From assembly GCA_030372985.1 (NCBI GenBank), contig JAUCQB010000119.1, positions 1 to 64,000 of the forward strand: 64,000 nt of DNA. The letters run 5' to 3'. The position numbers and the translations under genes are program-made. Under the pieces are notes generated by a model. The model ran no database searches and had not been told where the DNA came from. It saw only the letters and a list, made by a program, of their open reading frames with translations. The stretch comes from Phycisphaerae bacterium. GTDB lineage: Bacteria > Planctomycetota > Phycisphaerae > UBA1845 > PWPN01. Below are positions 824 through 51,029 of the stretch, piece by piece (within the stretch, counting starts at the first letter, position 1; each line of letters begins with the position of its first letter).

Positions 824-1038
824 AAGTCTTTATCTTTCAGGCACTTAGGTTCGCACGGGCACCCCAAAATGTACTGCGAGGTGACCGTTGTTCAGATTAC
901 ATAATACCCATCGTAGCCCCACAAACAAGCGTCTCTGGCCTGAAAACGCGGCAAGACAATCAACCTGGAAAGCCGACGGTTCTCCATGACAAGCAAACTG
1001 CTCGTGAGTGCCCCGACCATATGAAGGTGTGATGACGT

Positions 1039-2451: not shown

Positions 2452-3073
2452 CCTGGGACAGCGAGTTCCATGCGTTCATCCTCCGTTGGCTCTGCGGCAC
2501 GGAGGCCGAAGACAAAGTCGCCGCTGAGCCCTTGCAGGATGCGACCGGTGAGCCGAGAGGCAGTCCTCAGGGCCGTTCCGAACTGGCCAAGGCCCTGCCG
2601 CGAGCGGTCGAATGCTGATCCGGTTGCCGTCCGGGACGCGCTTGGCAGACTGGTGGCACCCGTCTCCGACGCTGTCAGACGTGGCTCCTTTGGGTGGACG
2701 AGGTCGGACTGATTGAGCTGGATTCTGAACGTTTTCGAGCACGATCCGCGCCGGGTTCTCTGATGGTTTTTCGGCCGGCTGGGAGGCCGCTTGGCTTCTG
2801 CCGGCTCTGGCCTCTCCTTCTCGTTTATCAGCGTTACCCCCGCTGTTTATGGAACCGTGCAGCATCGCGCTTGTGGAAACGCCGAAATCGCTTATGATTC
2901 CTGCCGCAGATCATGGCATCCGCGATCAGACGCTGAACGACTCCATGCGTCAGCGTGGGCGAATCTGGAAGACGCGGGGCAACAACCAGGCACGCCCTGG
3001 CCACGTAGCCGGGTGAAGCCGTCTGGTGACTGTGGGTCGAAGCACCGATAGACCCCCAAACGGAGAAACCATC

Positions 3074-3382
3074 ATGAACATCGTGGGCTTGATTATTCAG
3101 TTGATCAGCGGCGCGGTCGGCGGCAATGCTGCCGGAGCACTTCTCAAGAAGTTCAGCCTTGGGACGGCCGGCAATTCCATCGTCGGCATTCTCGGTGGCG
3201 GAGTGGGCGGCCAGATTCTCGCAGCTCTCGGCGTCGGCGCCGCCGGTGCCGCTACCGGTGGGGATGCGAGTTCGCTCGACGTTGCCAGCATCATATCCAG
3301 CATCGCCGGCGGCGGCGTCGGCGGGGGCGTGCTGATGGCCATCATCGGTCTTATTCGCGGGCAAATGAAGAAGCCATCGTGA
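3074..3382 (+). CDS. Small Gly-rich hydrophobic protein (glycine-zipper-like), unknown function
   Basis: [55 protein letters not shown]...; preceded by ggagaaaccatc. Confidence 0.7.
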
Positions 3383-3440
3383 CCGCTCGCTGTGCATCGC
3401 ATGGCCGTTATCGTTCGCCAGCCAGTCTGCATCGATGACC

Positions 3441-5333
3441 CTATTCCTGCGGCTCGCGGCGATTCGTCGAGCGCGTTCCGGGTTTGACCTTGGGGTCGGG
3501 TGCAGACACTTTCGGCTGAGCCGGCGTGGTCTTGAAGATGCCGAGCAAGTTCCGTGGGCGGCTGGCCAAAGGCGATTTTTTCAGGTGCAGCTGTGTCGGC
3601 TGACCGGGGCTCTGCTGGATCTTCTCAGACACCGCCGGTTGCCCCGGCTTCACGACGCGCGGCGTTGTCTGGGCCGGCGGGGTCGACGCTTTCCCCGCCT
3701 GAGGTAGCGTCGGTCGCACCTGGGCGGGCTTTGGCGCACTCCGATCCTCTGATGGCCCTTTCTTGGGTTCGGAGGATCGGATCGTCGGGACAGGAACGGG
3801 CTGCTTCGACGTGGTCGCCGGTTTTGGGGTCTCCACGTCCTTGCGATGGTCCTTGTATTGCCGTGTTTCGGCAATGGTCTGGCGGTACTGCTTGATTCGG
3901 TCCTGCGAGACCGATTCAAACCGGACGGGCAGGTCCGGGCGTTTTACCGTCTTGCTCAGCGGCTCGACTACTTCGGGCTGAACGGTCACACGGAAGTCAA
4001 TGTCGTGCCGAGCCTCCAGTTTCGGAGGCGTCGGATACGTGCGAGGTGGCCGGGCCTCCGGATGGTCGCGCCGGTGGTTGTATTCGTCACGCAGACGCCG
4101 GGTGAACTCGTCCGGGGCCATGTGCTGCGTGGCAACATACCGGGCAAAGACCGGATCATAGCCATAGCGGCTGTTGTGGAAGGAAACCACCGGATAAATG
4201 CCCGATCGGAAGAACGCGCGATCGTAATAGTCGCCGAAGTAGAAATGGTCATATCGAGGCCGGGCGAATAGATCTCCGATGAGCAAAGACACGTTGACCA
4301 CCGCATTGGGTGAATACACAAAGGCACGGCGGGCCAGGACTTGCGGAGCCACACGGATGGGCGCGAACAGCACCCCCCGGCGAGGCACAATATGGTCCCA
4401 GTAGCCGCTCACGAAGACATAGCCGCTCGGTGTCCACACGTAGTGATCTGGAACCCAGACCCAATCATCCTTCGGCGGAATCCAGCATCCCGGCCGCCAG
4501 AGATACGTCGTTTGGCGCCACACCCAGACGCCCGGGACCCAGATGTGATTTGGCCTGGGTGGTTGACCAACCGGTCCGCTCTCGAGTGATTCGGGCGGCG
4601 GTGGCAGGTATTGCACCGTTTCAACGCTGTCGGTCTGCCAGAACCCGGAGACCCACTGGAAACCGCCCTGGACCCCGCGCCAGTAGCCCGGGACGAACTG
4701 TCTCTCCGGCGGCATGTTTCGCCAGATGCCGCTGACCCAGATGAAGTCGGAGCGCTCGTCGTCCCAGCCCCAGTAACCAGGAATCCAGGCCACATCATCA
4801 CCTTGAGGACGCTGGTCTGGCGGGACCTCATCGATCAGGGCCGGCGGGGGTTTGGAGACAATAAACCCCGGCGTTGGATCGAAAATGACGGGCACGGCAA
4901 ACGCCTCGTGCACCAAACCGCGATTCTCGACTACGTACGGACTCTCCACCGGGATGATCGGAGCGGCCGGCGCTGGCGGCACTACCGGTGCTCGCGGAAC
5001 TGCTGTGACTACTGGCGCTGGCGGCGCTACCGGGACTACTGGCGCCGGCGGGGCAGGAGGGGGCGGCTGGATGCGAACTTCTGGCGGCCGCTGTTGGATG
5101 CGGTCGCTGCTGTTTCGCCTCTCCTTGCTGTCGCGATCGCGCCGGTTCTCATCCTTCTCCCTGTCGGGTTGTCTCTCGCGCCCGCGATCATCGGGCTGTT
5201 CATACCGTTGCGGGTAGCGGTGCCGGTCTTTGCGGAAGCGATCTCCATGATCGTCTCCACATCCGGTCAGGGACATCGAAACGGCCAGAACCAACCAGAC
5301 TCCGGGTAGCAGGTATTTTACTGGATTGTTCAT
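3441..5333 (-). CDS. YXWGXW-repeat lipoprotein
   Basis: Lipobox LTGC; repeats [72 protein letters not shown]; charged/Pro-rich linkers. Confidence 0.85.
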
Positions 5334-5703
5334 AGCAGGTTCCTTCAGGCATCAGGGGCTTTGCTCAAAGCGCGGTCACCGGAAACCATGAAGCCTTGAT
5401 TCTAGCCAACCTTCACCTTCCATGCCATCATCATACCCTCTCGGCCATGCCGAGAGAGGCCCGGCCTGCTCCCGCGCGAACCCTGGGACACAATGCGCGT
5501 TCGCATGATCGGCCGCAGGCTGAGCAGTGGATTCGTCAGCATGGCTCGACTGGCGCACATGGTTGTTGCAGGGTGTCCGCTTGACCGCAGCGCCCAAGCA
5601 TATGATCCTGTCGTCCATGGACGATCTTGTGTTCACATGGCGTCTCGCCGCTGGGCCTCTGTGAGTTGCCCTGGGCGGCGGGCTGATCCGAAGGGGGCTT
5701 CAG

Positions 5704-7039
5704 ATGACTCGGCTACCGTCGATTGGGTGCCTGGTAGTGGTCCCGCAGGCTTTCAACCAGGTGCTCAGCGCCTCAGGCGCGCCGCAGGCGACGACCGCGC
5801 CGGCCTTGGCTCTGCCGACGCCTCAGCAGGTCGCTTGGCAGGACATGGAAGTGGGCATGTTCGTCCACTTCGCGCCCAATACCTGGCAGGACCAGGAGTA
5901 CGAAGATCTCTCCACGCCTTTGAGCAAGATCAACCCGGAGAAGCTGGATACGGATCAGTGGGTTCGTGCGGCCGAGGCGATGGGGGCCCGATACATCGTC
6001 TTCGTGGCCAAGCACGTCGGCGGTTTCTGCATGTGGCAGACTGAGACGACCGACTACGGCATCAAGAATACGCCGTGGCGGGGGGGCAAGGGCGACGTCC
6101 TTCGCGACCTGTCCGAATCATGTCGCAGGAAGGGCATCCAGCTCGGCGTCTATCTCAGTCCGCAGGACCGCAAGCACCGCGCGGGGATCGGCGGCAAGTG
6201 TAGCGACCCCAAGGACCAGGACACGTACAACAAGCTCTACCGTCAGCAGCTCGCCGAGGTGCTCACCCGCCACGGCACGATGGTCGAGGTCTGGTTTGAC
6301 GGCAGCAACGTGATCGACGTGGCCGACATCCTCAAGCAGTACGCCCCGAAGGCGATGGTCTTTCAGGGGCCGTGCGCGACCATCCGCTGGGTGGGCAACG
6401 AGGATGGTTTTGCTCCGTATCCGGCGTGGAACTCCGTCCCCCTGGCGGCGGCGAAATCGGGCGTGGCGACGGCCGAGCATGGAGACCCGAACGGAACCGC
6501 CTGGCTGCCGAACGAGTGCGACGCCCGCATTCGCCGCGAGTGGTTCTGGAACACGAAAAATGCCCCGACGCTCAAGACGGTCGATCAGCTCATGGAGATG
6601 TACTATCGTTCCGTGGGCCACGGGGCGGTGCTGCTGCTGAACCAGACGCCGGATACGACCGGCCTCATCCCCGAGAGCGACGTTCGGCGGGGGGCCGAAT
6701 TCGCAGCCGAGGTCAAACGCCGCTTTGGAACCAGCATCGCCGAAACCCGCGGGCAGGGCGAGACGGTTGAGCTGTCCGCTTGCCCGGCCGACGACGATAG
6801 ACCACGTCATCACCATGGAGGACATCGCCCAGGGCGAGCGGGTGCGGGAATACGTAGTCGAGGGCTGGGACGGTCATCAATGGAAAGAGCTCTGCCAGGG
6901 CACGGCCATTGGCCGCAAGAAGATCGACCGCGTCAAAGCCACGGAAGTGAGTCGGATCCGCTTGCGCATCACGGCCAGCGCCGTCACGCCGGTCATCCGT
7001 AAACTGGCGGTCTACAGAACAGCCAATAGGACACGATAG
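5704..7039 (+). CDS. Alpha-L-fucosidase (GH29) with C-terminal discoidin-like region, apparent +1-nt frameshift near 6775
   Basis: MFVHFAPNTWQDQEYED, GARYIVFVAKHVGGFCMWQTETTDYGIKNTPWRGGKGDVL, MVEVWFDGSN; the C-terminus continues in another frame (TTIDHVITMEDIAQGERVREYVVEGWDGHQWKELCQGTAIGRKKIDRV). Confidence 0.8.
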
Positions 7040-7298
7040 GTAGTTCTGACCTGTTTCCGTGGGACCCCTTTCAGGGTCCCAGCCTGAGAGGCCATCCGCC
7101 ATAGCGCCATCGCGACAAAACGGACGTGCGAATGGACACTTTTGGGTATAATGCGGGTGTGCACGGCCGGCACGTCTTTTGAGGCCGGCACCACAAGCGA
7201 CGCGCGGAATCGAGCGAGTCGGCCGTCCGATCCCGGGGATCTCGTTTCCGCGCCGCTCGAAGAGCATTTCGGTACAAACGAGCGTCGAGGGTGGCCTC

Positions 7299-8861
7299 AT
7301 GCGTACTGTACGGGCAGAGACGGCGGACTGGCTTCAGGTGCTTGCCCAGCTTGAAGATAACCCCTGGGCGATGACTCTCGTGCCGACGCTCCGGCTCCAC
7401 TGGTTCATTCGTCTGCGGTGGATCTTCCTGGCGGGGGCAGTGGCCGTTCTGGCCCTTGAACGCTTCATCCTGCCCGCCAGCCAGCGCCCGTTCTCCCTGG
7501 CCGTGCTGCTCATTGTGCTGGCCTGGGTCAATCTCATCTGGCTTGTCGTCTCGCGTTTTCTCTTCCGGCAGCTCGCCCGGAATCCGAAGGCCCTTCGCAG
7601 CCAGGTCGAGCGGTTTGCCTGGTTCGCCAACGCCCAGGTGGCGGTTGACCTGCTGCTCCTGACGGCCATCCTGCGCTACACCGGCGGCGTCGAGAATCCC
7701 CTGGCGATCTTCTACCTGTTTCACATGGCCATCGTCTCCCTGCTGCTCAAGCGATGGCAGGCGGTCCTGCAGGGCGTATGGGCCCTGTTGTTGTACGGCG
7801 TGCTGGTGTTCGGCGAGTGGCGGCAGTGGCTCACGCCGCACTACACCTTCCTGCCGACATTCGCCGCCGGCCCGTACAGCCAGCCGGAATACGTCGTAGC
7901 CGCGTTCGTAGTTGTCGCATGCGGCATCTTCGGCACGCTCTATTTCACCCTGCACATCGCCGGCCGCTTCCAGGAGCAGGAACGCCAGCTTCAGAGAGCA
8001 AACAGCGCGTTGCAGCAGTCGCAACGGGCGATTCAGGACCTCCAGCGACGACGATCGCGCTTCATGCAGACGGCGGCCCATCAGCTCAAGAGCCCTTTGG
8101 CGGCGATCCAGTCGATCACGGAACTGATCCGCGCCGGCCTGGTGCCGCCCGAGGCGATACCCGGGACCTGCGGAAAAATCGTCCATCGCTGCCAGGATGG
8201 CATCGTACAGGTCACTGAGCTGCTGACCCTGGCGCGCGTCCAGGAGGCCGATCCCGCTCGGCACCGGCAGGCGGGGTCCGATGTTCGGGAGGCCGTTTAC
8301 GAGTTGTTCAGCCGGTTTCGCCCGGTGGCGGAGGGCAAGCAGATTGAGCTGGTATCCTCCGTGCCGCCCGACGAAGAATTGACCGTTTGCGTCGACGCCC
8401 GCGACCTGCGCGACTGCGTCGGCAATCTGATCGAAAACGCGATCAAGTACACCCCCGGGCCCGGCACCGTGACGGTGACGGTCATGCCGGAGCGGTCCGA
8501 CGGCGAGCTCACCGCAGTACTCATCAACGTGACGGACACCGGCGTGGGAATCGATCCGAACCTGGCGGTGTCGCCCGACGGCGAGTCGGGCCACGAAGCC
8601 GTGTTCGACGCTTTCCGCCGGGGAGCAAACGTGATCGCGGCCGGTATCCCAGGCACGGGGCTCGGCTTGTCGATCGTTCGGGAGGTGGTTGAGCAGGCCG
8701 GTGGCCAGATTGTGGTCAGCTCTTGTCCGGGTCAGGGATCGAGCTTCAGCCTCACGTTCCCGTCGCCTTCCACCAGCAGAAGCCGGCCGCAAATCCGAAA
8801 CACGCGGGCGAGCCAAGTGGTACTCGAGGAATCGGCGGATGACGCCTCGTCCCCAGGTTAG
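7299..8861 (+). CDS. Membrane sensor histidine kinase
   Basis: Multiple TM segments, HisKA QTAAHQLKSPLAAIQSITEL, HATPase boxes NLIENAIKYTPG, DTGVGIDP, GTGLGLSIVREVVEQAGG. Confidence 0.9.
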   Translation: MRTVRAETADWLQVLAQLEDNPWAMTLVPTLRLHWFIRLRWIFLAGAVAVLALERFILPASQRPFSLAVLLIVLAWVNLIWLVVSRFLFRQLARNPKALRSQVERFAWFANAQVAVDLLLLTAILRYTGGVENPLAIFYLFHMAIVSLLLKRWQAVLQGVWALLLYGVLVFGEWRQWLTPHYTFLPTFAAGPYSQPEYVVAAFVVVACGIFGTLYFTLHIAGRFQEQERQLQRANSALQQSQRAIQDLQRRRSRFMQTAAHQLKSPLAAIQSITELIRAGLVPPEAIPGTCGKIVHRCQDGIVQVTELLTLARVQEADPARHRQAGSDVREAVYELFSRFRPVAEGKQIELVSSVPPDEELTVCVDARDLRDCVGNLIENAIKYTPGPGTVTVTVMPERSDGELTAVLINVTDTGVGIDPNLAVSPDGESGHEAVFDAFRRGANVIAAGIPGTGLGLSIVREVVEQAGGQIVVSSCPGQGSSFSLTFPSPSTSRSRPQIRNTRASQVVLEESADDASSPG

Positions 8862-24844: not shown

Positions 24845-26116
24845 ATGCGTATTCGTGCCGCCGTGTTGACCTGTGCTCTTCTTGTATTCTTGACCTCCGG
24901 CTTCCTTGTCGGATGCCATTCGCCCCTCGAGCGGAGAGCACAGGTAGCCCATTCCGCACCGTCTTCCGTCGCCCAGACCGAACAAGCCGGCCAGGGTCGT
25001 GTGGGTCTCATCGTAGACGTTGACGAGACCATCTCCATGACCGACTACCCGAGCCTGCTGTTCGGCAGGGGGACGGACGACTCGCGGCCTCACGAGCATG
25101 CTCGGGATGTGCTCGGCAGGCTCAACCGGCACTTCGACGTGACCTACCTGACGGCTCGCCCGCAGTGGCTTACCGGCCACACCCGCAAGTGGCTCAGAGA
25201 CAAAGGCTTTCCACCTGGCATCGTGTTGACCACTGCTCGAATGCTGGACGTGTATTGGCCGGGTGCTTTCAAGAAGCGGACGATCGCTGCGCTGCGGCGC
25301 ATCTCACCCAACATCTTGATCGGCATTGGAGACCGGCACACCGACGTGGAAGCATACGTGGCCAATGGGATGCTGGCTTTTGTTGTGAATCCCCGCCCCA
25401 GCGTCACGTACCACGAACGAGCGGTGGTCCTGAAGGACTGGGGAGCGATTGAGGCCTTTTTCGAGGAGCACGGCGGCAGCCTTCGAGAACCGGAGGCCTT
25501 GCGGGCGCGATATGGCATCGGCGGGGCGCCGCTGGATCCTTCGACGGTCCGCACTCAACCGGAGGTGGACCTGTCGCTGCTTTTCGAAATCCCCGTGCTT
25601 GTCCCCACGCTGCTGGTCGAAAGCCTCGCAAAGGCCGAAGTGTCCCACGAGCAGGCCGAGGCGAAGCGTGCTCTGGAGCAGGTGACGACACCGTTTCCGG
25701 AGGTGCTTCGGCAGGTTGCGGCCAGGTTCGGCGAGGACAAGCTGCTCAAACTGAGGCTGGCGACCGAGCGCGGCACCGCGGTTTATGTCGTGACATTTCT
25801 GCAGGAAGGCAGGGTTTGCGAAGTCAAATTGGATACAACCCTGGAGACCGTGGATAAGGCGCGAGAAGTCGTGTGGATGGTAGACCAGGACAACGCCGTC
25901 GCTGCTCGCGCAGAGGCTCGCCTCACCTTCTCTGAAGCATTGAGCCGGTCAACGACGGAGGTCGAAGGGCAGGTCTATGAGATCGAACTGGAAATGGACG
26001 ACAATCGGCCGACCTACGAGACGGCGTTGATGGGTCTGGGCAGGTTCCTCGAGATTGAAGTGGACGCTGGAACCGGCGAGGTGATTGAAATCGAGGATGA
26101 GACTGCGATCCGGTGA
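24845..26116 (+). CDS. Lipoprotein with HAD (LNS2/lipin-like phosphatase) domain plus PepSY-like repeats
   Basis: Lipobox FLVGC; HAD motif I LIVDVDETI, GIGDRHTDVEAYVANGML; C-terminal FSEALSRSTTEVEGQVYEIELEMDDNRPTYETALMGLGRFLEIEVDAGTGEVIEIED. Confidence 0.78.
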   Translation: MRIRAAVLTCALLVFLTSGFLVGCHSPLERRAQVAHSAPSSVAQTEQAGQGRVGLIVDVDETISMTDYPSLLFGRGTDDSRPHEHARDVLGRLNRHFDVTYLTARPQWLTGHTRKWLRDKGFPPGIVLTTARMLDVYWPGAFKKRTIAALRRISPNILIGIGDRHTDVEAYVANGMLAFVVNPRPSVTYHERAVVLKDWGAIEAFFEEHGGSLREPEALRARYGIGGAPLDPSTVRTQPEVDLSLLFEIPVLVPTLLVESLAKAEVSHEQAEAKRALEQVTTPFPEVLRQVAARFGEDKLLKLRLATERGTAVYVVTFLQEGRVCEVKLDTTLETVDKAREVVWMVDQDNAVAARAEARLTFSEALSRSTTEVEGQVYEIELEMDDNRPTYETALMGLGRFLEIEVDAGTGEVIEIEDETAIR

Positions 26117-26354: not shown

Positions 26355-26417
26355 AACTAGAACAAACGGCGATCGGGTTGAATGCCGTTGTGGCCAAGGC
26401 GTCGGTGGAGGCCTATA

Positions 26418-26437
26418 TTGTGAATGGACATTCACAA
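26418..26437. promoter_or_regulatory. Candidate TetR operator 1: TTGTGAATG-GA-CATTCACAA
   Basis: Perfect 9-bp inverted repeat directly before the probable start at 26448. Confidence 0.7.
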
Positions 26438-26447
26438 CGAGGTGCCG

Positions 26448-27689
26448 ATGAGAGCCCAGAAGTTGGATACGCAAGTCCGGCAGGAGCAGATTGCGGAGGC
26501 GGCCTTAGGTGTGGTGGCCTGCCGAGGCATGAAAGGACTCAGTGTCGCCCGGGTCGCACGGCGGATCGGTGTGGTTCCCTCCGCGATCTACCGGCACTAC
26601 GGCAGCAAGGATGAGGTACTCGATGCGGTTCTCGATCTGATTCGTGATCGCCTGCTGGCCAACGTTGCGGCCGTGTGCAACGAGAGCGGCGAGGCGTTGG
26701 ATCGCCTCCGCGGTTTGCTGGTTCGTCATGTCCGACTGCTGCGGGAGAACGAGGGCATACCACGAATCGTCTTTTCACAGGAATTGCATAACGGCGATTC
26801 CGGCCGGAAGGCTCGTATGTGCGGGACCATCAGGGAGTATCTCGGTCAGGTTGCCAAGATCGTACGTGAAGGTCAACAGAATGGCGAAATCCGCTCAGAT
26901 TTCCCGGCGGAGGTCGTGGCCATGATGTTTCTGGGGGTCATTCAACCTGCCGCGTTGCTGTGGGACCTGAGCGACGGCGATTTTGATGTGGCGAGGCACG
27001 CCGAGCGGGCGTGGGAGATCCTTGAAGAGGCCGTCCGGCCCATCGAAGGGGCAGGCCGGGCCGGTTCGGCGAAACAGAAGGAGAACGTCATGAAGGCGAC
27101 TGACATCATGCGAGAAGAGCACCGGGTGATCCAACGCGTCCTGCAGTGCCTGACCGCGGCGACTGACAGGGCCGAGAAGGACGGCACGCTGGACGGCGAC
27201 TCCATCCGGAAGATGATCGCATTCCTTGGTGAATTTGCTGATCGGTGTCACCACGGAAAAGAGGAGGCTCGATTTTTTCCGGTCGCCCGTCGCCGGGGCG
27301 TCACTTGCCTGCCGGGCAATATCGACATCCTGCTGGCTGAGCACGAACAGGGTCGAGCTCACCTTCGGGCGATGGATGAGAACCTCTCGGCGGCCGAGAA
27401 GGATGACGCCGAGGCGAAAACGCGATTCTGCCGGGAGGCGCGACAATACGTTCGCCTGTTGACGGAGCATATCGGGAAGGAAGACAATTGTCTGTTTCCC
27501 GCGGCGGACAGGGCGCTTACCGCAGCGGACCAGGAAGCACTCGTTCGGGCGTTTGAACAGATGGAACGCGAAGAGATGGGTGAGGGAGCGCATGAGCGAC
27601 TCCACGCACTGGCCGATGAACTCTGTTCACGATGGCAGGTGACGGTTCCCGCGGAATCGGGTCATTCCGGTTGTTGCCGCCACGAGTAG
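26448..27689 (+). CDS. TetR/AcrR-family regulator fused to a hemerythrin (HHE) domain
   Basis: TetR HTH: AEAALGVVACRGMKGLSVARVARRIGVVPSAIYRHYGSKDEVLDAVL; HHE: IMREEHRVIQRVL, CHHGKEEARFFPVA, LLAEHEQGRAHLRAM, YVRLLTEHIGKEDNCLFPAAD. Confidence 0.88.
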   Translation: MRAQKLDTQVRQEQIAEAALGVVACRGMKGLSVARVARRIGVVPSAIYRHYGSKDEVLDAVLDLIRDRLLANVAAVCNESGEALDRLRGLLVRHVRLLRENEGIPRIVFSQELHNGDSGRKARMCGTIREYLGQVAKIVREGQQNGEIRSDFPAEVVAMMFLGVIQPAALLWDLSDGDFDVARHAERAWEILEEAVRPIEGAGRAGSAKQKENVMKATDIMREEHRVIQRVLQCLTAATDRAEKDGTLDGDSIRKMIAFLGEFADRCHHGKEEARFFPVARRRGVTCLPGNIDILLAEHEQGRAHLRAMDENLSAAEKDDAEAKTRFCREARQYVRLLTEHIGKEDNCLFPAADRALTAADQEALVRAFEQMEREEMGEGAHERLHALADELCSRWQVTVPAESGHSGCCRHE

Positions 27690-27754: not shown

Positions 27755-27776
27755 GATGTGAATGACTCTTCACATC
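27755..27776. promoter_or_regulatory. Candidate TetR operator 2: GATGTGAA-TGACTC-TTCACATC
   Basis: Perfect 8-bp arms; shares TGTGAA-N6-TTCACA with operator 1; 10 bp before the HlyD start. Confidence 0.65.
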
Positions 27777-27786
27777 GGACGCAACC

Positions 27787-28944
27787 ATGACAAAAAAACG
27801 GCTGTTGATGGCGGTATTGGCGGCCGCAGCGGCCGCGGCGCTCGGTTATGGATACCTGAGCAACAGGTCGCATGACGACCCGAACGTTATCCGCGTATCC
27901 GGCAACATCGAGGTGACCGATGCGGAGGTGAGCTTCAGGATCGCCGGACGCGTCGAGGAGCGGCTTGTATCGGAGGGAGAACTCAGTCGGCGGGGCGATG
28001 TCGTGGCCATTCTCGACAGTTCTGACCTGGTCAGCGAAGTGGCCATGCGGCGGGCGGAACTTGGGGTGGCAGAGGCGGCCTTGGCGGAACTGGAGGCCGG
28101 CTCGCGTGCGGAGGAAATTGCCCAGGCAAAGGCTGCGGCGGACAAGACGCGGGCGCATCTGGCCGAGCTGGAGGCGGGCTCGCGACCCGAGGAGATCTCC
28201 ACGGCGGAGGCCACTCTCGAACGAACAAGGGCGGATCTTGAGGACGCCCGGAGCAACTACGAACGTCTCAAGAGGCTGCGCGAGCAGCAGGTGGCGGCCC
28301 AGCAGGAGTTCGACACCTGGAGGGCTCGCTATGAAGCCGCTCAGGCTCGCTTCCGCGAAGCATCGGAGCAACTCAAGCTGGTCAAGGCCGGACCTCGCCA
28401 GGAGCAGATCGAGCAGGCGCGGGCTGATCTGGCCAAGTCGGAAGAAAACTACAAGCTTGTCAAAAACGGCCCCCGCAGGGAGACGATCGCCCAGGCCCGG
28501 GCCCGCGTCGAGCTGGCGAAGGCATCGCTTCAACTGGCGGAGACGCGCCTCGGCTACGCGAAGTTGACCGCCCCCATTTCCGGCGTCGTACTGTCCGAGA
28601 ACGTGGAACCGGGCGAATACGTGGCTCCCGGGACGCCGGTCGTCACCATCGGAGACCTGGAGAATGTCTGGCTCCGCGCGTATATCAACGAGACGGATCT
28701 GGGGCGCGTGAAGGTCGGCCTGAAGGTTCAGGTTACCACGGATACGTATCCCGGCAAGTTGTATGATGGGCGCGTTTCGTTCATCGCGTCCGAAGCGGAG
28801 TTCACGCCCAAGACCGTTCAGACCGCCAAGGAACGCATCAAGCTGGTCTATCGCATCAAAGTGGACATTCCCAATCCCGGCATGGAGCTGAAGCCCGGGA
28901 TGCCCGCCGACGGGGCCATTCTCCTCGTTCAGGATGGTGGATGA
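27787..28944 (+). CDS. HlyD/YbhG-like membrane fusion protein with internal 26-aa repeats
   Basis: N-terminal TM, GNIEVTDAEVSFRIAGRVEERLVSEGELSRRGDVVA, long coiled coil, APISGVVLSENVEPGEYVAPGTPVVTIGDLENVWLRAYI. Confidence 0.9.
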   Translation: MTKKRLLMAVLAAAAAAALGYGYLSNRSHDDPNVIRVSGNIEVTDAEVSFRIAGRVEERLVSEGELSRRGDVVAILDSSDLVSEVAMRRAELGVAEAALAELEAGSRAEEIAQAKAAADKTRAHLAELEAGSRPEEISTAEATLERTRADLEDARSNYERLKRLREQQVAAQQEFDTWRARYEAAQARFREASEQLKLVKAGPRQEQIEQARADLAKSEENYKLVKNGPRRETIAQARARVELAKASLQLAETRLGYAKLTAPISGVVLSENVEPGEYVAPGTPVVTIGDLENVWLRAYINETDLGRVKVGLKVQVTTDTYPGKLYDGRVSFIASEAEFTPKTVQTAKERIKLVYRIKVDIPNPGMELKPGMPADGAILLVQDGG

Positions 28945-29870
28945 TGGACGCCATCGTCGCGAAGGACCTGACCAAGACCTTCGGTTCTCTGACTGCAGTG
29001 AACAACCTCACGTTGACCGTCGCCCGGGGAGAGATCTTCGGTCTCGTGGGGCCCGACGGGGCCGGCAAGACCACGGCGATGCGGCTCCTGACCTCGATCA
29101 TGGCGCCCACATCCGGCGATGCCTGGGTGGCGGGTCATCACGTCGTTCACGAGGCGGAGGCGATTAAGGAACAGATCGGATACATGAGCCAGCGGTTCGG
29201 CCTGTATACCGATCTCACCGTGCTGGAGAACGTTCATTTCTACGCCGACATCTATGGCGTGCCGAGAAGGCGGCGAGACGAGAGAATCGACCGGCTCCTC
29301 GCTTTCAGCAACTTGCTGCCGTTCAAGAAGCGCCTGGCCGGCAACCTTTCGGGCGGGATGAAGCAGAAGCTCGGCCTGGTCTGCGCGCTGATCCACACGC
29401 CGAAGGTGCTCTTCCTCGACGAGCCGACCAACGGCGTGGACCCCGTATCGCGTCGCGACTTCTGGCGGATCCTGTATCAGCTCCTGCGCGAGAAGGTCAC
29501 GATCTTCGTTTCGACGGCCTATCTGGACGAGGCGGAGCGGTGCAACCGGCTGGCCCTGATGCATGCCGGCACGCTGCTGGCCATGGGAACGCCGGGCGAC
29601 GTGAAGCGGCTGATGCGGGGGACCATTGTTGAGGTTCGTTCACACCAGGCGCGCAAGGCCACAACCCTCCTGCGGGAGAGGTTGGAGGCCGATTCAGTAG
29701 GTCTTTTTGGGGACCGCGTTCACATCGTCACTCGCGAACCGGAGGCAGCGGCGATGCGAGCCAGACAGATTCTCGACGCAGGCGGCCTTGAAGTTGCCGG
29801 TGTCGGGACGATCGAACCGACGTTGGAGGATGTGTTCGTGTCGGTCCTGTCCAACCCCTTGAAGGAGTGA
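28941..29870 (+). CDS. ABC transporter ATP-binding protein (YbhF N-half-like)
   Basis: GPDGAGKTT, NLSGGMKQKLGLVCALIHTPKVLFLDEPTNGVD. Confidence 0.92.
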   Translation: MMDAIVAKDLTKTFGSLTAVNNLTLTVARGEIFGLVGPDGAGKTTAMRLLTSIMAPTSGDAWVAGHHVVHEAEAIKEQIGYMSQRFGLYTDLTVLENVHFYADIYGVPRRRRDERIDRLLAFSNLLPFKKRLAGNLSGGMKQKLGLVCALIHTPKVLFLDEPTNGVDPVSRRDFWRILYQLLREKVTIFVSTAYLDEAERCNRLALMHAGTLLAMGTPGDVKRLMRGTIVEVRSHQARKATTLLRERLEADSVGLFGDRVHIVTREPEAAAMRARQILDAGGLEVAGVGTIEPTLEDVFVSVLSNPLKE

Positions 29871-30848
29871 TTGATGGATGCCCGTGACACGGACAAGGCG
29901 GTCGCCGTCAGGGACCTCGAGAGGCGCTTCGGCAGCTTCGTCGCCGTCAATCATGTCAGCTTTGACGTCATGAAAGGCGAGATCTTTGGATTCCTCGGGC
30001 CCAACGGGGCGGGCAAGTCCACGACCATCCGGATGCTCTGCGGCATTCTTGCGCCCACGGCAGGCACGGGAACGGTCGCCGGATTCGACATACGTGATCA
30101 GACCGAGCAGATCAAGTCCCACATCGGCTACATGAGCCAGAAGTTCTCGCTGTACGAGGATTTGACCGTCGAGGAGAACATCGACTTCTACAGCGGTATT
30201 TACCGCATCCCCCCGGACAAGAAGCGCGAGCGCAAGGAATGGGTCATTGAGATGGCCGGGCTCCACGAGCATCGGCGGCTGCGGACGGGAATACTCTCGG
30301 GCGGCTGGAAGCAGCGGCTGGCGCTGGGCTGCGCGATCCTGCACGAGCCGCCCATCGTTTTTCTCGACGAGCCGACCTCGGGTGTGGATCCCCTCAGCCG
30401 TCGGCAGTTCTGGGATCTGATCTACGAGCTGTCGGGCAGGGGCGTCACGGTTTTTGTGACGACGCACTACATGGATGAGGCGGAATACTGCGACCGACTG
30501 GGACTGATCTACCGCGGCGAGTTGATTGCCCTCGGAACGCCGGGGGCCCTCAAGACCGAGCTGATGCGCGAGGATGTTCTCAGTGTGCTGTGCGAACATC
30601 CCCAGGATGCGATGCCCGAGATCGAGCAGGTCGCCGGGGTAAAGGAGGTCGCTTTGTTTGGCAGGGGCCTGCACGCCGTGGTTGAAGACGGGGCATCGGC
30701 GGCCGTCGGCGTCCGGAGCCGCCTCGTGGAGCGGGGCTACCAGGCCGTGCAAGTCGAGCAGATTGCTCCCTCGTTGGAAGACGTCTTTGTCTCCCTGATC
30801 GAGGCCCGGGACCGCCTCGAACAGCCTCAGCGGGAGGTGCGGCGATGA
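29871..30848 (+). CDS. ABC transporter ATP-binding protein (YbhF C-half-like)
   Basis: GPNGAGKST, ILSGGWKQRLALGCAILHEPPIVFLDEPTSGVD. Confidence 0.92.
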   Translation: MMDARDTDKAVAVRDLERRFGSFVAVNHVSFDVMKGEIFGFLGPNGAGKSTTIRMLCGILAPTAGTGTVAGFDIRDQTEQIKSHIGYMSQKFSLYEDLTVEENIDFYSGIYRIPPDKKRERKEWVIEMAGLHEHRRLRTGILSGGWKQRLALGCAILHEPPIVFLDEPTSGVDPLSRRQFWDLIYELSGRGVTVFVTTHYMDEAEYCDRLGLIYRGELIALGTPGALKTELMREDVLSVLCEHPQDAMPEIEQVAGVKEVALFGRGLHAVVEDGASAAVGVRSRLVERGYQAVQVEQIAPSLEDVFVSLIEARDRLEQPQREVRR

Positions 30849-31978
30849 ACCCGTTGCGCGTGTGGGCCGTTGCCCGCAAGGAATTCATTCACGTGCTGCG
30901 CGACCTCCGCAGCCTGGGCATGGCCGTCGCCATCCCGATGCTGCTTCTCCTGCTGTTTGGTTACGCCCTGACGCTCGACGTGGACCACGTACCCATGGTC
31001 GTGTGGGACCAGAGCGAGTCGCACGCAAGCCGCGAGTTTGTCAGTCGTTTCCGGGGATCCCGTTACTTCTCGATCCGGAATCACGCTCGCAGCTACCCCG
31101 AAGTGGAGCGCGCGATCGACTCCGGCGAGGCGATGATGGCTCTTGTTATCCCTCGAGGTTTCGCCGCGCACATCGAGTCCGGGCGTCCTGTTGCCGTCCA
31201 GTTGATCACGGACGGGAGTGACTCGAATACCGCGACCATCGCGATGGGCTATGCCGAAGCGATTGCCCTTACCTGGTCGCAGGAACTGGCGGTGCGTGAA
31301 ATCCGGCGAACAGGCGGGCGCGCCCTTCATGCGCCGGTGGATGTTCGGCCGAGGACATGGTCCAACCCGGACATGGAGTCCAGGAACTACATCATCCCGG
31401 GGCTGATCGCCGTGATCATGATGGCCATCGCGGCTCTTCTGACCTCACTGACCGTGGCCCGGGAATGGGAGCGGGGCACGATGGAGCAGTTGATCTCGAC
31501 GCCGGTGAAGGGGCGTGAACTCATACTCGGCAAGCTCCTTCCGTACTTCGTAATCGGCATGTTTGACGTGCTGCTGGCCGTTCTGATGGGCGAGTTCCTG
31601 TTCGAGGTGCCGCTGCGCGGGAGCGTGGCACTGCTCTTCGGCACGGCGGCGGTTTTCCTGGCGGGGGCGATGTCGCTGGGAATGGTGATCAGCATTCTGA
31701 CCAAGAGCCAGCTTCTGGTGAGCCAGCTGGCCATGGTGCTGACCTTCCTGCCGTCGTTTCTTCTGTCGGGGTTCATGTATGCGATCAGCAATATGCCCCG
31801 GCCCATCCAGGCAGCCACCTATCTGATCCCCGCCAGGTACTTTGTGAGTCTGCTGAAGGGCATTTATCTGAAGGGTGTCGGGTTGGAGATCCTCGCCGTC
31901 GAGGCTGCACTCCTGACCGGCTTCGGCGTCGGGATGGTGGCACTGGCAAACGCGATGTTCAAGAAGAAGCTGGTCTAG
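30845..31978 (+). CDS. ABC-2 type permease (YbhS-like)
   Basis: ARKEFIHVLRDLRSLGMAVAIPMLLLLLFGYALTLDVDHVPMVVWDQSES; C-terminal TM block. Confidence 0.9.
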   Translation: MNPLRVWAVARKEFIHVLRDLRSLGMAVAIPMLLLLLFGYALTLDVDHVPMVVWDQSESHASREFVSRFRGSRYFSIRNHARSYPEVERAIDSGEAMMALVIPRGFAAHIESGRPVAVQLITDGSDSNTATIAMGYAEAIALTWSQELAVREIRRTGGRALHAPVDVRPRTWSNPDMESRNYIIPGLIAVIMMAIAALLTSLTVAREWERGTMEQLISTPVKGRELILGKLLPYFVIGMFDVLLAVLMGEFLFEVPLRGSVALLFGTAAVFLAGAMSLGMVISILTKSQLLVSQLAMVLTFLPSFLLSGFMYAISNMPRPIQAATYLIPARYFVSLLKGIYLKGVGLEILAVEAALLTGFGVGMVALANAMFKKKLV

Positions 31979-31980
31979 CC

Positions 31981-33111
31981 ATGTTCGAACGCATTCGGCA
32001 GATGCTGGTCAAGGAGTTCATCCAGGTCTTTCGTGACCCGAAGATGAAGGGCATCATCTTTTTGATGCCGGTCATCCAGGTGCTGGTGTTCGGCTACGCG
32101 GTGACGACCGACGTCAAGCACGTTGCGACGGCGGTCTACGATCTGGACAACAGCGTTGCGAGCCGGGAACTCATTGCCCGTTTCGTCCAATCGGGTTATT
32201 TCGACGTTGTCAAGTACGTCGATGACGAAAACGAGGCCCGCGATCTGGTCGATCGGGGCACGGCGAGCGCTGTGCTGCGGATGAACAAGGGGTTCGAGGA
32301 CGATCTCCGGGCCGGGCGCACGGCCGACCTGCAGGTGATCGTCGACGGCACCGACTCCAACACGGCCCGTATCGTGCTCGATTACGGCGCTGAAATCGTC
32401 GGCCGTTTTTCTGAAAAGGTCCTGCTCACCCGCTACGCCCGGCTGAGGGGTCTTCCGCAGACGCCCGCGCAGGTTACCCTGGCTACGCGTGCCTGGTTCA
32501 ACGAGAACCTCGAGAGCCGCAACTTCTACGTGCCCGGAGTGATCGCCGTCATCGTCCTGCTCGTGACCCTCATGCTGACCAGCATGGCCATCGTGCGGGA
32601 GAAGGAGATCGGCACCATGGAGCAGATCATGGTCTCGCCCATTGCCCCCTACGAGTTCATCCTCGGCAAGACCGTGCCGTTCGCCCTGATCGGCTTTGCC
32701 GACGTGATCGGCATCACTCTGGTCGGCGTGTTTTGGTTCGACGTTCCGATTCGGGGCAATCTGTTGCTGCTGTTCCTGGCGACCACGTTGTATCTGATGA
32801 CGACGTTGGGCGTAGGCCTTCTGATATCGACCGTGAGTCAGACCCAACAGCAGGCCATGATGACCGTTTTTTTCTTCTATTTGCCCGCCGTGCTCCTGTC
32901 CGGTTTCATGTTCCCGATCGCCAACATGCCCGAGGTCGTACAGTGGCTGACGTACCTCAATCCGCTTCGGTACTTCCTGGTGATCGTCCGAGGCATCTTT
33001 CTGAAGGGCGTGGGGCCCGGCATCCTGTGGCCACAGATGCTCGCGCTGACGGTCATGGGCCTTGCCACTTTATGGCTGGCAACGAGGCGTTTTCACAAAA
33101 CGATGGTCTGA
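31981..33111 (+). CDS. ABC-2 type permease (YbhR-like)
   Basis: LVKEFIQVFRDPKMKGIIFLMPVIQVLVFGYAVTTDVKHV; C-terminal TM block. Confidence 0.9.
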   Translation: MFERIRQMLVKEFIQVFRDPKMKGIIFLMPVIQVLVFGYAVTTDVKHVATAVYDLDNSVASRELIARFVQSGYFDVVKYVDDENEARDLVDRGTASAVLRMNKGFEDDLRAGRTADLQVIVDGTDSNTARIVLDYGAEIVGRFSEKVLLTRYARLRGLPQTPAQVTLATRAWFNENLESRNFYVPGVIAVIVLLVTLMLTSMAIVREKEIGTMEQIMVSPIAPYEFILGKTVPFALIGFADVIGITLVGVFWFDVPIRGNLLLLFLATTLYLMTTLGVGLLISTVSQTQQQAMMTVFFFYLPAVLLSGFMFPIANMPEVVQWLTYLNPLRYFLVIVRGIFLKGVGPGILWPQMLALTVMGLATLWLATRRFHKTMV

Positions 33112-46149: not shown

Positions 46150-47478
46150 ATGAAACGAAAAATCATTCTTCTGGTAGTGGTTTTAGGCTTGATCGGCGGC
46201 GGGTCGTTTGGCTACGTGCGCTTTGCCAAGGCAAGGGAGAAGCCCGCTGAAGCCCAGACCGCCAAAGTCGAGCGGGGTGTCATTCAGACCGTCGTGGCCA
46301 GCACCGGCCGCGTCGTGCCCAATCTGGATGTCCAGATCAAGTGCAAGGCCAGCGGCGAGATCATTCAACTCCCCTTCGATGTGAGCGATTCGGTCCAGAA
46401 GGACGAGTTGCTTCTCCAGATCGATCCGATCGACGAAGAACGCATGCTCCAGCAGTCCAAGGCGACGCTCGACGCTTCGCAGGCCAGACTGAAAACGGCC
46501 CAGACCAGCCTGGCAATCGCCCGGCGCGAGCTCGAGACGGAGCGGATGAGGGCCCACGCCAGCCTGAAATCCGCCGGGGCCAACGCCAAAGACGCGAGAG
46601 CCAAGGCCGAGCGAATGAAAGAACTGCTGGCCAAGAAGCTGACCAGCCCGGAAGAGGCCGAGACCGCCGACACCAACGCCGCCAAGCTGGAAGTCGAGCT
46701 GGAACTGGCGAAGATTCGGCTGGAAGAACTCAAGACCCGTGAGGAAGCCCTGGAACTCAAGGTCCAGGACGTCAAGCTGGCCGAGTCCGAGGTCGTTTCC
46801 GATGACTTGAGGTTGAAGATACAGGAGAAGCGCGTGAAAGACACGAAGGTGCTCTCACCCATCGCGGGCGTGGTCTCCGCACGCGACGTCCAGATGGGCC
46901 AGATCATCTCCTCGGGTATCAGCAACGTGGGCGGGGGTACCACCGCGATGGTGGTGTCCGACCTGTCCCGGATATTCGTCCTGGCCTCAGTCGATGAAAG
47001 CGATATCGGGCAGGTCAAGGTGGACCAGCCGGCGACGATCACCGCCGACGCCTTCCCCGGGAAGGAGTTCGAAGGCCAGGTCGTAAGAATCGCGACCCAG
47101 GGTGTGAACCTCAATAACGTGGTGACGTTCGAAGTGAAGATCGAGGTCATCGGCAAGGACAAGTCCCTGCTCAAGCCGGAGATGACCGCGAACGTCGCGA
47201 TTATCACAGCCCGGAAGGAGGACGTCCTTCTGGTGCCGGCCGAGGCGGTGGTCCGGAGGGAACGCCAGCACTGGATCGAGGTGATGAACGGGCCCACCAA
47301 AGAAGAGCGAAAAGTTGAGACCGGGCTGACCGACAACGAGAAAACCGAGATTCTCAGCGGCTTGTCCCAAGGGGAGACGGTGGTTCTGCGGACGGACGCT
47401 CCCGAAAGTCAGTGGAGTGGTCGCCGGACGACGGGTTCGCCCTTCATGGGGCCGCCGATGAGGAGGGGGCCGCGTTGA
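46150..47478 (+). CDS. MacA-like periplasmic adaptor (HlyD/RND MFP family)
   Basis: TM anchor, [45 protein letters not shown], coiled coil, [19 protein letters not shown]. Confidence 0.9.
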
Positions 47479-48149
47479 TCATCGAGGCGAGCCATCTGGT
47501 GAAGCACTATCTGGTCGGCGATACCACGGTTCGAGCGCTCGACGGAGTCAGCATGACCGTCGCTCCGGGTGAAATGGTCGCCATATCCGGCCCGTCCGGG
47601 AGCGGTAAGAGCACCCTGATGCATATTCTCGGATGCCTCGATCAGCCGGACAGCGGACAATACATTCTCGCGGGTGAGGATGTGTCGTTGCTGCGGAGAG
47701 ACGCCCTGGCGGACATCCGCAACCGTCGCATCGGCTTCGTGTTCCAGACCTTCAATCTGCTGCCGCGGCTCAGCGCGCTGGAGAACGTCGAGCTCCCGTT
47801 GCTGTATGCCGGCCAGAGCCATGCTCGGGACAAAGCGGCCGAGACGCTGAGAGCCGTCGGCCTGGGCGATCGCATGAACCACAGCCCGAACCAGCTTTCA
47901 GGCGGCCAGCGGCAGCGCGTATCGGTTGCCCGGGCGCTGATCAATGATCCCGCGCTGGTTTTGGCCGATGAGCCCACGGGCAACCTGGATACCAAGACCG
48001 GCGAGGAGATTATGGCCCTGCTGGAGTCGCTGAATGCCGGCGGCCGCACCATTGTGGTCGTTACCCACGATGCCGCGGTCGCCAGGCGGTGCCGTCGGCA
48101 GGTCTGTATCCGCGACGGGCGGATTGTGGAAAACCCTCCTCAGAACTGA
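47475..48149 (+). CDS. MacB/LolD-type ABC ATP-binding protein (TTG start overlapping upstream TGA)
   Basis: [61 protein letters not shown] overlap at 47475-47478. Confidence 0.92.
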
Positions 48150-48160
48150 GAACGCCCGAG

Positions 48161-49366
48161 ATGCTGTTCTGGATCATTGTCAAGCTGTGCCTCAAGAGCC
48201 TCTGGGCCAACAAGCTTCGGTCGTTCCTGGCCATGTTGGGTATCATCATCGGGGTGGCTGCGGTGATTGCCATGCTGGCCATTGGCAACGGGGCCCGCGA
48301 GCAGGTGCTCTCGCGGATCTCGGCGATGGGGACGAACCTGCTGGTCATCACCCCCGGGCACACCGGGTCCCGCGGGGTCACCAGCGGGCATGCCGAGACC
48401 CTCGTGCTCAGCGACGCCGAGGCCATCTGCGAACTTCCCGGCGTGCTGAGGGTCGCTCCCGCGGTTAGCGGTACACAACAGGTCAAATATGCCAACCAGA
48501 ACCAACCGGTACGCGTGGTGGGTACCTCGGCCACCTACCTGCCGATTCGCGATTTCGTCGTGGAGAAGGGCCACGCATTCACTGAGCTGGAGGCGGAACT
48601 CATGGCCCGGGTGGCCATTCTGGGCCCGGCGACGGTGGAGAAGCTGTTCGGGCCCAACGATCCGCTCGGTGAGATGATCAAGATCAAGGGGGTCAATTTC
48701 ACCGTCATCGGCGTGACCAAGGGCAAGGGCGACCAGGGCTGGTTTAACCCGGACGACACGGCCATCGTCCCGTATACCACGGCCATGAAACAGCTCCTTG
48801 GAGTCGACTGCTTGGGTGAAATCGATGTCCAGGTGGTTGAAGGGGGCGACCTGACCGCGGTTCAGGAGTCCATCACAAAACTGCTCCGCAAACGCCATCG
48901 GCTGGAAGAGGGAACCGACGACGATTTCTACGTCCGCAACCAGGCTGACTACATTCAGATGGCTACGCAGTTTAGCCAGACGTTCACCTACCTGCTCGGC
49001 GGGATCGCCAGCGTCTCGTTGCTGGTCGGCGGCATCGGCATCATGAACATCATGCTCGTGACGGTCACGGAGCGCACCCGCGAGATCGGCGTCCGCAAGG
49101 CCATTGGGGCCAGGGAGCGGAGCATTCTGCTGCAGTTTCTCATCGAGACGCTGATCATCAGCGGCCTGGGCGGGGCGCTTGGTGTGGGGCTGGGTCTTGC
49201 GGCATCCAAGGTGATCGGGGCGGTCACGCCCTTCGCAGTGTCGGTTCAGCTGTCAAGCATATTCCTGGCCCTTTCGTTTTCGGGCGCGGTCGGGGTTTTC
49301 TTCGGGTGGTATCCGGCCCGGCGGGCGGCGCTTCTCAACCCGGTGGACGCACTTCGATATGAGTGA
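48161..49366 (+). CDS. MacB-like FtsX-family ABC permease
   Basis: LWANKLRSFLAMLGIIIGVAAVIAMLAIGNGA; GGIGIMNIMLVTVTERTREIGVRKAIGARERSILLQFLIE. Confidence 0.92.
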   Translation: MLFWIIVKLCLKSLWANKLRSFLAMLGIIIGVAAVIAMLAIGNGAREQVLSRISAMGTNLLVITPGHTGSRGVTSGHAETLVLSDAEAICELPGVLRVAPAVSGTQQVKYANQNQPVRVVGTSATYLPIRDFVVEKGHAFTELEAELMARVAILGPATVEKLFGPNDPLGEMIKIKGVNFTVIGVTKGKGDQGWFNPDDTAIVPYTTAMKQLLGVDCLGEIDVQVVEGGDLTAVQESITKLLRKRHRLEEGTDDDFYVRNQADYIQMATQFSQTFTYLLGGIASVSLLVGGIGIMNIMLVTVTERTREIGVRKAIGARERSILLQFLIETLIISGLGGALGVGLGLAASKVIGAVTPFAVSVQLSSIFLALSFSGAVGVFFGWYPARRAALLNPVDALRYE

Positions 49367-51029
49367 GATCAATCGCATGCAAGGATGGCGGGTCTCGGCG
49401 AAAAGCGCTGTTGTCTGCCTGACGTCGCTGGTCTGCGGGTGCTTGAGCTCCTGCACCTCGATGGACACGACCAGCATTGCCGACTACATCGGCGCGGCTT
49501 CCGCCTCTCCGCAGGCGAGGCGGGCGGCCACGACCCGGCCGGCCAGGCGTGCGGTGGCCACTCGGCCGTCAACTCCGATGGCGCTGACCACCCGGCCGGA
49601 TGGGACGATGCAATTGACCATCACCAGCGCCATCGTGATGGCCCTGGAAAACAACCGGGCGCTGGTCGCCGAGAAACTAAATCCGCAGATCCGGCGAACC
49701 GTCGAGCAACAGGAACTGGCGGCCTTCGATCCGCTGCTGACCGGCCGAGTGAGTTACGGCCGCGAGCGGAGGAACCTGCCGTCCGTTGACGGAGAAAAGG
49801 TGTCTGAAATCACCGATGGTTTCGGCGCCCAGCTTGGTGTCGAGCAGTTCCTTCCGACCGGTACGACCCTGAGGCTGTTTGGCCAGACCGATGTCGTGCA
49901 GGGGGCTTTTCGCGAGGATGATGACTGGGCCTCGCGTGCCGAGCTGACCGCCACGCAGGCGCTGCTGCGAGGGGCGGGCGTGGATGTGAACCTAGTCAGT
50001 CTGCGACAGGCGCGGCTGGACACGCTCTCATCACAGTATGAGTTTCGGGGCTTCGCGCAGGAGCTGGTAGCAGCGGTGGAGGCGACCTATTGGGACTGCG
50101 TCCTCGCCCAGCGGCAGATTGAGATCGTCGAGAACTCGCTGGTGGTGGCCGAGCAGCAATACGAGGAAACGAAGGAGCGGATTCGGGTCGGCCAGCTCGC
50201 CGAAACCGAACTCGCCGCCGCCGAGGCTGAGGTGGCGCTGCGGCGCGAGAATCTGATCAACGCCCGCAGTGCGCTCGATACCACGCGGCTCACGCTGGCC
50301 CGACTGCTCAACCCGCCGGGGGGCCTGACCGGTCATGAGGACATCGTGTTTCAGACGCTGCCGACGGGCGTCGCGACGGAGCCCGATCCCGTCGAGCTGC
50401 ATGTCGAACTGGCCATGCGCATGCGGCCCGACCTGAACCAGGCCCGCCTGCTCGTGCAGCGCGATGAGCTCGAACTGGTCACGACCCGGAACGGCTTGCT
50501 GCCCAGGATGGATCTGTTCATCACCTTCGGCAAGACCGGCTATGCCAGTTCCTTTGGGCAGTCCGTCAGCAACACCGGTGGCGGCAACTACGACGTTCTG
50601 GTGGGGATCAGCGGAGAATACGCCCCCATCAATCGAGAGGCCAGGGCCAGGAACCAGCGGGCCATGCTCTCTCACGAACAGGCCCTCGCGTCACTGGACA
50701 ACCTCGCACAACTGGCCGAGGTCGACGTTCGCGGGGCCTACATCGAGCTGACTCGTTCCCAGGAACAGGTGCGCGCCACCGAAGCCACCCGCCGACTGCA
50801 GGAGGAGAAGCTCCGGGTCGAAACCGAGAAGCTCCGCGTCGGCAAGTCCACGTCCATTCTCGTTGCCGCCGCACAGCGCGATCTGTTGTCCAGCCAGATT
50901 GCCGAGGTCCGCGCCGTCGTCACCAACATCAAGGCGATGATTGAGCTCTACCGCATGGAAGGCTCGCTGCTGGAGCACCGGGCAATCTCCTGCCCCGGCG
51001 CCGAACCGGTTGAGCTGGCCGAGCAGTGA
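49359..51029 (+). CDS. TolC-family outer-membrane efflux lipoprotein-like
   Basis: Cys-rich signal region, TSAIVMALENNRALVAEKLNPQIRRTVEQQELAAFDPLL, long helical repeats; overlaps upstream permease by 8 nt. Confidence 0.87.
   Translation: MSEINRMQGWRVSAKSAVVCLTSLVCGCLSSCTSMDTTSIADYIGAASASPQARRAATTRPARRAVATRPSTPMALTTRPDGTMQLTITSAIVMALENNRALVAEKLNPQIRRTVEQQELAAFDPLLTGRVSYGRERRNLPSVDGEKVSEITDGFGAQLGVEQFLPTGTTLRLFGQTDVVQGAFREDDDWASRAELTATQALLRGAGVDVNLVSLRQARLDTLSSQYEFRGFAQELVAAVEATYWDCVLAQRQIEIVENSLVVAEQQYEETKERIRVGQLAETELAAAEAEVALRRENLINARSALDTTRLTLARLLNPPGGLTGHEDIVFQTLPTGVATEPDPVELHVELAMRMRPDLNQARLLVQRDELELVTTRNGLLPRMDLFITFGKTGYASSFGQSVSNTGGGNYDVLVGISGEYAPINREARARNQRAMLSHEQALASLDNLAQLAEVDVRGAYIELTRSQEQVRATEATRRLQEEKLRVETEKLRVGKSTSILVAAAQRDLLSSQIAEVRAVVTNIKAMIELYRMEGSLLEHRAISCPGAEPVELAEQ

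Follow-up and report, generated by a model that had tools for sequence, protein, structure and literature searches.

Within a Phycisphaerae genome, one open reading frame joins a TetR-family regulator to a hemerythrin-like protein, which raises the question of how the two came to share a frame and whether the hemerythrin part senses for the repressor. The locus lies in a window of 64,000 nucleotides, the whole stretch of DNA analysed (contig JAUCQB010000119.1, positions 1 to 64,000). The fusion is known from this one draft genome of 6.45 Mb in 272 contigs. The best explanation of the locus as a whole is probably that of an exporter autorepressor acting at two sites, which was fused to hemerythrin by a deletion, is translated in two forms and carries a hemerythrin part with a role like that of its relatives.

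The fused reading frame

The frame (26448-27689, + strand) runs unbroken from an ATG at 26448 to a stop at 27687-27689 and encodes 413 aa. The start at 26448 is backed by a Shine-Dalgarno sequence and by relatives, and the earliest ATG in this frame (26424) sits within the operator O1 described below. The frame divides as follows.

26448..27038, + strand: TetR part, aa 1-197, with HTH and ligand/dimer domain (Pfam; 74% identical to G011 tetR)
27039..27089, + strand: linker, aa 198-214, apparently the former tetR C-terminal tail (KQKEN) and one codon of former intergenic spacer (junction comparison, pLDDT)
27078..27083, + strand: internal Shine-Dalgarno sequence AAGGAG, 6 nt ahead of ATG 27090, which doubles as microhomology at the putative deletion junction (junction comparison)
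27090..27689, + strand: HHE protein, hemerythrin-like, covering aa 215-413 plus the stop codon and opening with an ATG of its own at 27090 (77% identity with the protein that stands alone in G011)

Pfam recognized TetR_N at aa 15-61 (1.1e-11; 44.7 bits against a cut-off of 24), the YsiA-like TetR_C_4 at aa 72-192 (1e-10; 42.3 bits against 21) and Hemerythrin (PF01814) at aa 218-353 (2.5e-19; score 70.4 against a gathering cut-off of 25.3). The HHE ligands H225, H268/H269, E272/E273, H299, H341 and E345 are invariant across 15 aligned relatives. The hemerythrin part is a complete HHE protein with the full set of metal ligands and a predicted di-iron site. The first-pass annotation had described one uninterrupted frame for a TetR protein and a full HHE domain, and this was borne out, as the Pfam domains, the motifs that it quoted and the ligands were all found.

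The full-length AlphaFold model contains both domains, with the TetR ligand/dimer region helical. Residues 201-213 are unstructured (pLDDT about 42) and pTM is 0.50, so the placement of the domains relative to each other is undefined. Modelled alone with AlphaFold, the hemerythrin part forms a helical bundle (mean pLDDT 93). Foldseek returned weak matches only (best 3cax, E 0.0086).

Operators and the exporter operon

Two copies of one palindrome flank the fusion gene, which is followed by the genes of an ABC exporter.

26391..26419, + strand: sigma-70-like promoter TGGCCA-17-TATATT, with the -10 box abutting O1 (consensus scan)
26419..26436, no strand assigned: operator O1, TGTGAATGGACATTCACA (palindrome search, conservation)
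27757..27774, no strand assigned: operator O2, TGTGAATGACTCTTCACA, between the fusion and hlyD (palindrome search)
27787..28944, + strand: HlyD/YbhG-like membrane fusion protein (profile matches)
28941..29870, + strand: ABC ATPase 1, DrrA/YbhF-like (profile matches)
29871..30848, + strand: ABC ATPase 2, DrrA/YbhF-like (profile matches)
30845..31978, + strand: ABC-2 permease 1, YbhS/YbhR-like (Pfam)
31981..33111, + strand: ABC-2 permease 2, YbhS/YbhR-like (Pfam)

The motif TGTGAA-N6-TTCACA occurs in exactly two copies in the 6.45-Mb genome (reversed control 0), and the number of matches expected in the window is 0.04 with one mismatch allowed. The operator is conserved before this tetR throughout the phylum, with or without hemerythrin. 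It lies at -28 to -36 from the tetR start, where it is exact in 16 of 20 loci and has one mismatch in the other four, and in most relatives a -10-like box likewise ends at the operator ahead of tetR. A second operator, close to the tetR 3' end and ahead of the following gene, is exact in G068, G455, G378 and G647 and has one mismatch in G662. Given the two operators and a phylum-wide conservation that does not require hemerythrin, the TetR part is very probably a dedicated repressor of its own gene and of the ABC exporter. We infer that it would bind TGTGAA-N6-TTCACA over its own promoter and before hlyD, keeping itself and the YbhGFSR-like exporter off until some ligand frees the DNA. Control of the downstream exporter had been proposed in the first-pass annotation, and the second conserved operator directly before hlyD supports it. 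The analysis provides a precise predicted operator for a TetR-exporter system running through the phylum.

At two loci (L046, L047), exact operators stand on both sides of tetR and no relative of the window HlyD was detected downstream in the stretch examined. The regulator there may control another target gene. Directly upstream of the fusion, the window encodes a 423-aa protein (24845-26116, + strand) with a signal-like N-terminus, possibly a lipoprotein, which unusually pairs a HAD/LNS2-like phosphatase domain (1.4e-7) with a PepSY domain at its C-terminus (5.7e-12). A second exporter cluster at 46150-51029 (+ strand) comprises an HlyD-like protein, an ABC ATPase and an outer membrane efflux protein.

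Separate genes in relatives and the origin of the junction

In G011, a member of the same family and the closest relative with both parts, tetR, DUF6448 and hemerythrin are three separate genes. The G011 tetR terminates in KRKEK and a stop, and the next gene encodes DUF6448 (PF20046, 3.3e-59). G340, from another class, has separate tetR, hemerythrin, hlyD and ABC genes in that order (HlyD-ABC-ABC). The first-pass annotation had named homologues always occurring as two separate proteins as evidence against its reading, and this is the arrangement of G011 and G340, where both parts are intact. A 475-aa frame had suggested G340 as a second fusion, which is ruled out by two stops between tetR and hemerythrin. 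No other TetR-hemerythrin fusion was found in samples of the class (299 genomes, E<=1e-20), the phylum (393 genomes, E<=1e-25) and the order (114 genomes, E<=1e-40) or in plasmids, and none is reported in the open-access literature searched. At many loci (e.g., L023, G068, G066, G208, G455, G619, G662), tetR precedes hlyD-ABC-ABC-permease-permease without hemerythrin, and in G014 and G068 it stands ahead of DUF6448 and another exporter. DUF6448 changes position yet keeps company with this regulator. At the locus L081 of G662 (994-8112), the order is tetR-hlyD-ABC-ABC-permease-permease with DUF6448 at the operon end.

The window TetR clusters with those of G011 and G003 in the tree (100/100 support). 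A combined alignment of TetR and hemerythrin homologues was left out because the hemerythrin rows were misaligned. In G003, tetR is intact and a different deletion took most of DUF6448 and hemerythrin, leaving a 61-aa remnant. The operon region seems prone to deletion, as G003 presents a second and different one. The remnant itself (L026 3416-3601) joins 14 DUF6448 codons to the last 47 of hemerythrin.

The junction can be traced base by base. Up to AAGGAG, the window sequence GCGAAACAGAAGGAGAACGTCATGAAGGCG matches the end of the G011 tetR (ACGAAACGGAAGGAGAA...), and from AAGGAG on it matches the start of the G011 hemerythrin gene (GCAAAGGAGCAACGATATGAAAGCG). The two AAGGAG copies in G011 are spaced 685 bp apart. 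Because the junction falls on this repeated Shine-Dalgarno hexamer, we infer, for both direction and mechanism, that about 0.69 kb was deleted from one Shine-Dalgarno sequence to the other. DUF6448 and the stop codon of tetR would have been lost with it, and tetR would have been joined, in a frame kept by chance, to the gene that followed, which encoded a free-standing di-iron hemerythrin-like protein. The product would be modular, its two domains connected by an unstructured linker. A single genome gives no date for the fusion.

The same junction makes it very improbable that a base error in the assembly hides a stop and that tetR and hemerythrin are really two genes overlapping at ATGA. The assembly is of draft quality, and in another frame ATGAAGG holds a TGA over the ATG, such that a single indel in the tail of tetR would be enough to produce this classical arrangement; yet the tail KQKEN matches the relatives' KRKEK/KRKEN in frame up to the junction, the codons after it match the hemerythrin start, and the junction is without a long homopolymer. 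A 6-base repeat is also too short for the usual assembly chimera. The fusion is real in this assembly, its origin is understandable and the TetR-exporter system is well-behaved.

The hemerythrin gene's own Shine-Dalgarno sequence and ATG persist inside the frame, and free hemerythrin may thus still be made. The internal duplex is predicted at -9.3 kcal/mol, compared with -8.1 and -8.2 for free hemerythrin genes, and ranks joint fourth among 78 in-frame internal ATGs. Internal initiation is suggested rather than established by these values because several internal ATGs of ordinary genes carry equally strong Shine-Dalgarno-like sequences. The cell may make the 413-aa fusion and a free hemerythrin of 199 aa. 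Compared with G011, dN is 0.153 and dS 0.81 for one half, and dN 0.144 and dS about 2.1, near saturation, for the other. Both halves are under purifying selection, which is silent on whether the fusion itself is selected. The in-frame join without stops could mean that it is. The locus offers a traceable gene fusion beside its unfused relatives, in which a deletion between Shine-Dalgarno repeats would turn adjacent operon genes into one frame and retain an internal start.

The hemerythrin part and known systems

The fusion might instead be a true one-component gas or redox sensor, in which binding of NO or O2 or oxidation of the di-iron site alters the TetR dimer so that the exporter is derepressed. 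Every metal ligand is intact, the join is in frame with purifying selection on both halves, operators stand ahead of both transcription units, and hemerythrin relatives occur beside NO reductase. Such a sensor is nevertheless doubtful, as most relatives have the same TetR and operator without hemerythrin, the genes are separate wherever both occur, the unstructured linker leaves the domain orientation undefined in the model, and G003 lost hemerythrin by deletion yet kept tetR and its operator. It is unlikely that NO, O2 or redox state, acting at the di-iron site, directly controls DNA binding by TetR at the exporter, in which case one deletion would have produced a sensor architecture. Direct gating is possible, and the evidence does not favour it over the modular reading. 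The earlier proposal that hemerythrin senses for the repressor does not find support, given the same TetR and operator without hemerythrin in most relatives. In G011 and G340, hemerythrin has a gene of its own, and loss of the gene in between accounts for the fusion in the window. If the fused hemerythrin is coupled to DNA binding, the protein would be a candidate gas-responsive repressor.

Under the modular reading, the hemerythrin part most likely serves, like its relatives, to handle or buffer NO, nitrite or iron, and would not have evolved as the repressor's sensor. The same genome encodes a second hemerythrin (the C127 copy, 36%), clustered between an Rrf2 regulator on one side and a NorB-type NO reductase followed by DUF6448 on the other (L029 174-4738), an arrangement that suggests nitrosative functions for both DUF6448 and hemerythrins of this group. 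NO reductase adjoins hemerythrin in G468 and lies nearby in G397. Hcp (hydroxylamine reductase), nitrate-reductase-type genes and a Crp/Fnr regulator are each found beside one hemerythrin locus. A consistent qNOR neighbourhood was expected for this group, yet it was beside or near only 3 of the 31 loci examined. The group profile has YtfE chains as its nearest solved structures (1.6e-14), and YtfE has a part in nitrosative stress (PMC9052748). Because of these neighbours of relatives and the YtfE matches, NO or nitrite chemistry is more plausible than oxygen sensing.

Free-standing PF01814 proteins of the same phylum (G011, G340 and the C127 copy) share the ligands and length of the window hemerythrin but are separate genes, unfused to TetR in the sampled genomes. 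The RIC/YtfE/NorA di-iron proteins are alike in the profile match to YtfE chains and in their association with NO metabolism, and the curated RIC model TIGR03652 scores 28.2 bits against a cut-off of 204.7. Hemerythrin-domain oxygen and redox sensors are comparable in that hemerythrin is a possible sensory domain of a multidomain protein (PMC9388753); the words TetR, helix-turn-helix and DNA-binding are absent from that review. Among solved structures, the best sequence matches to the TetR part are FadR/YsiA-type regulators (Bacillus; PDB 1vi0, 3whb). The FadR equivalog scores 65.4 against a cut-off of 200 bits, and this type differs in its operon and in the C-terminal hemerythrin of the window protein.

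The Escherichia coli system CecR (YbiH)/ybhGFSR likewise has a TetR-family regulator of an exporter of HlyD, ABC and two ABC-2 permeases, and differs in having no hemerythrin. The E. coli YbhF is a single protein with two ATPases, unlike the window exporter with its two ATPase genes. The window HlyD scores 267.7 with the curated YbhG model PRK03598, below the cut-off of 393. Regulation of ybhGFSR by YbiH is listed in PMC6790063, and the CecR-YbhGFSR gene layout, with TetR beside HlyD, ABC ATPases and two ABC-2 permeases, is present at the fusion locus.
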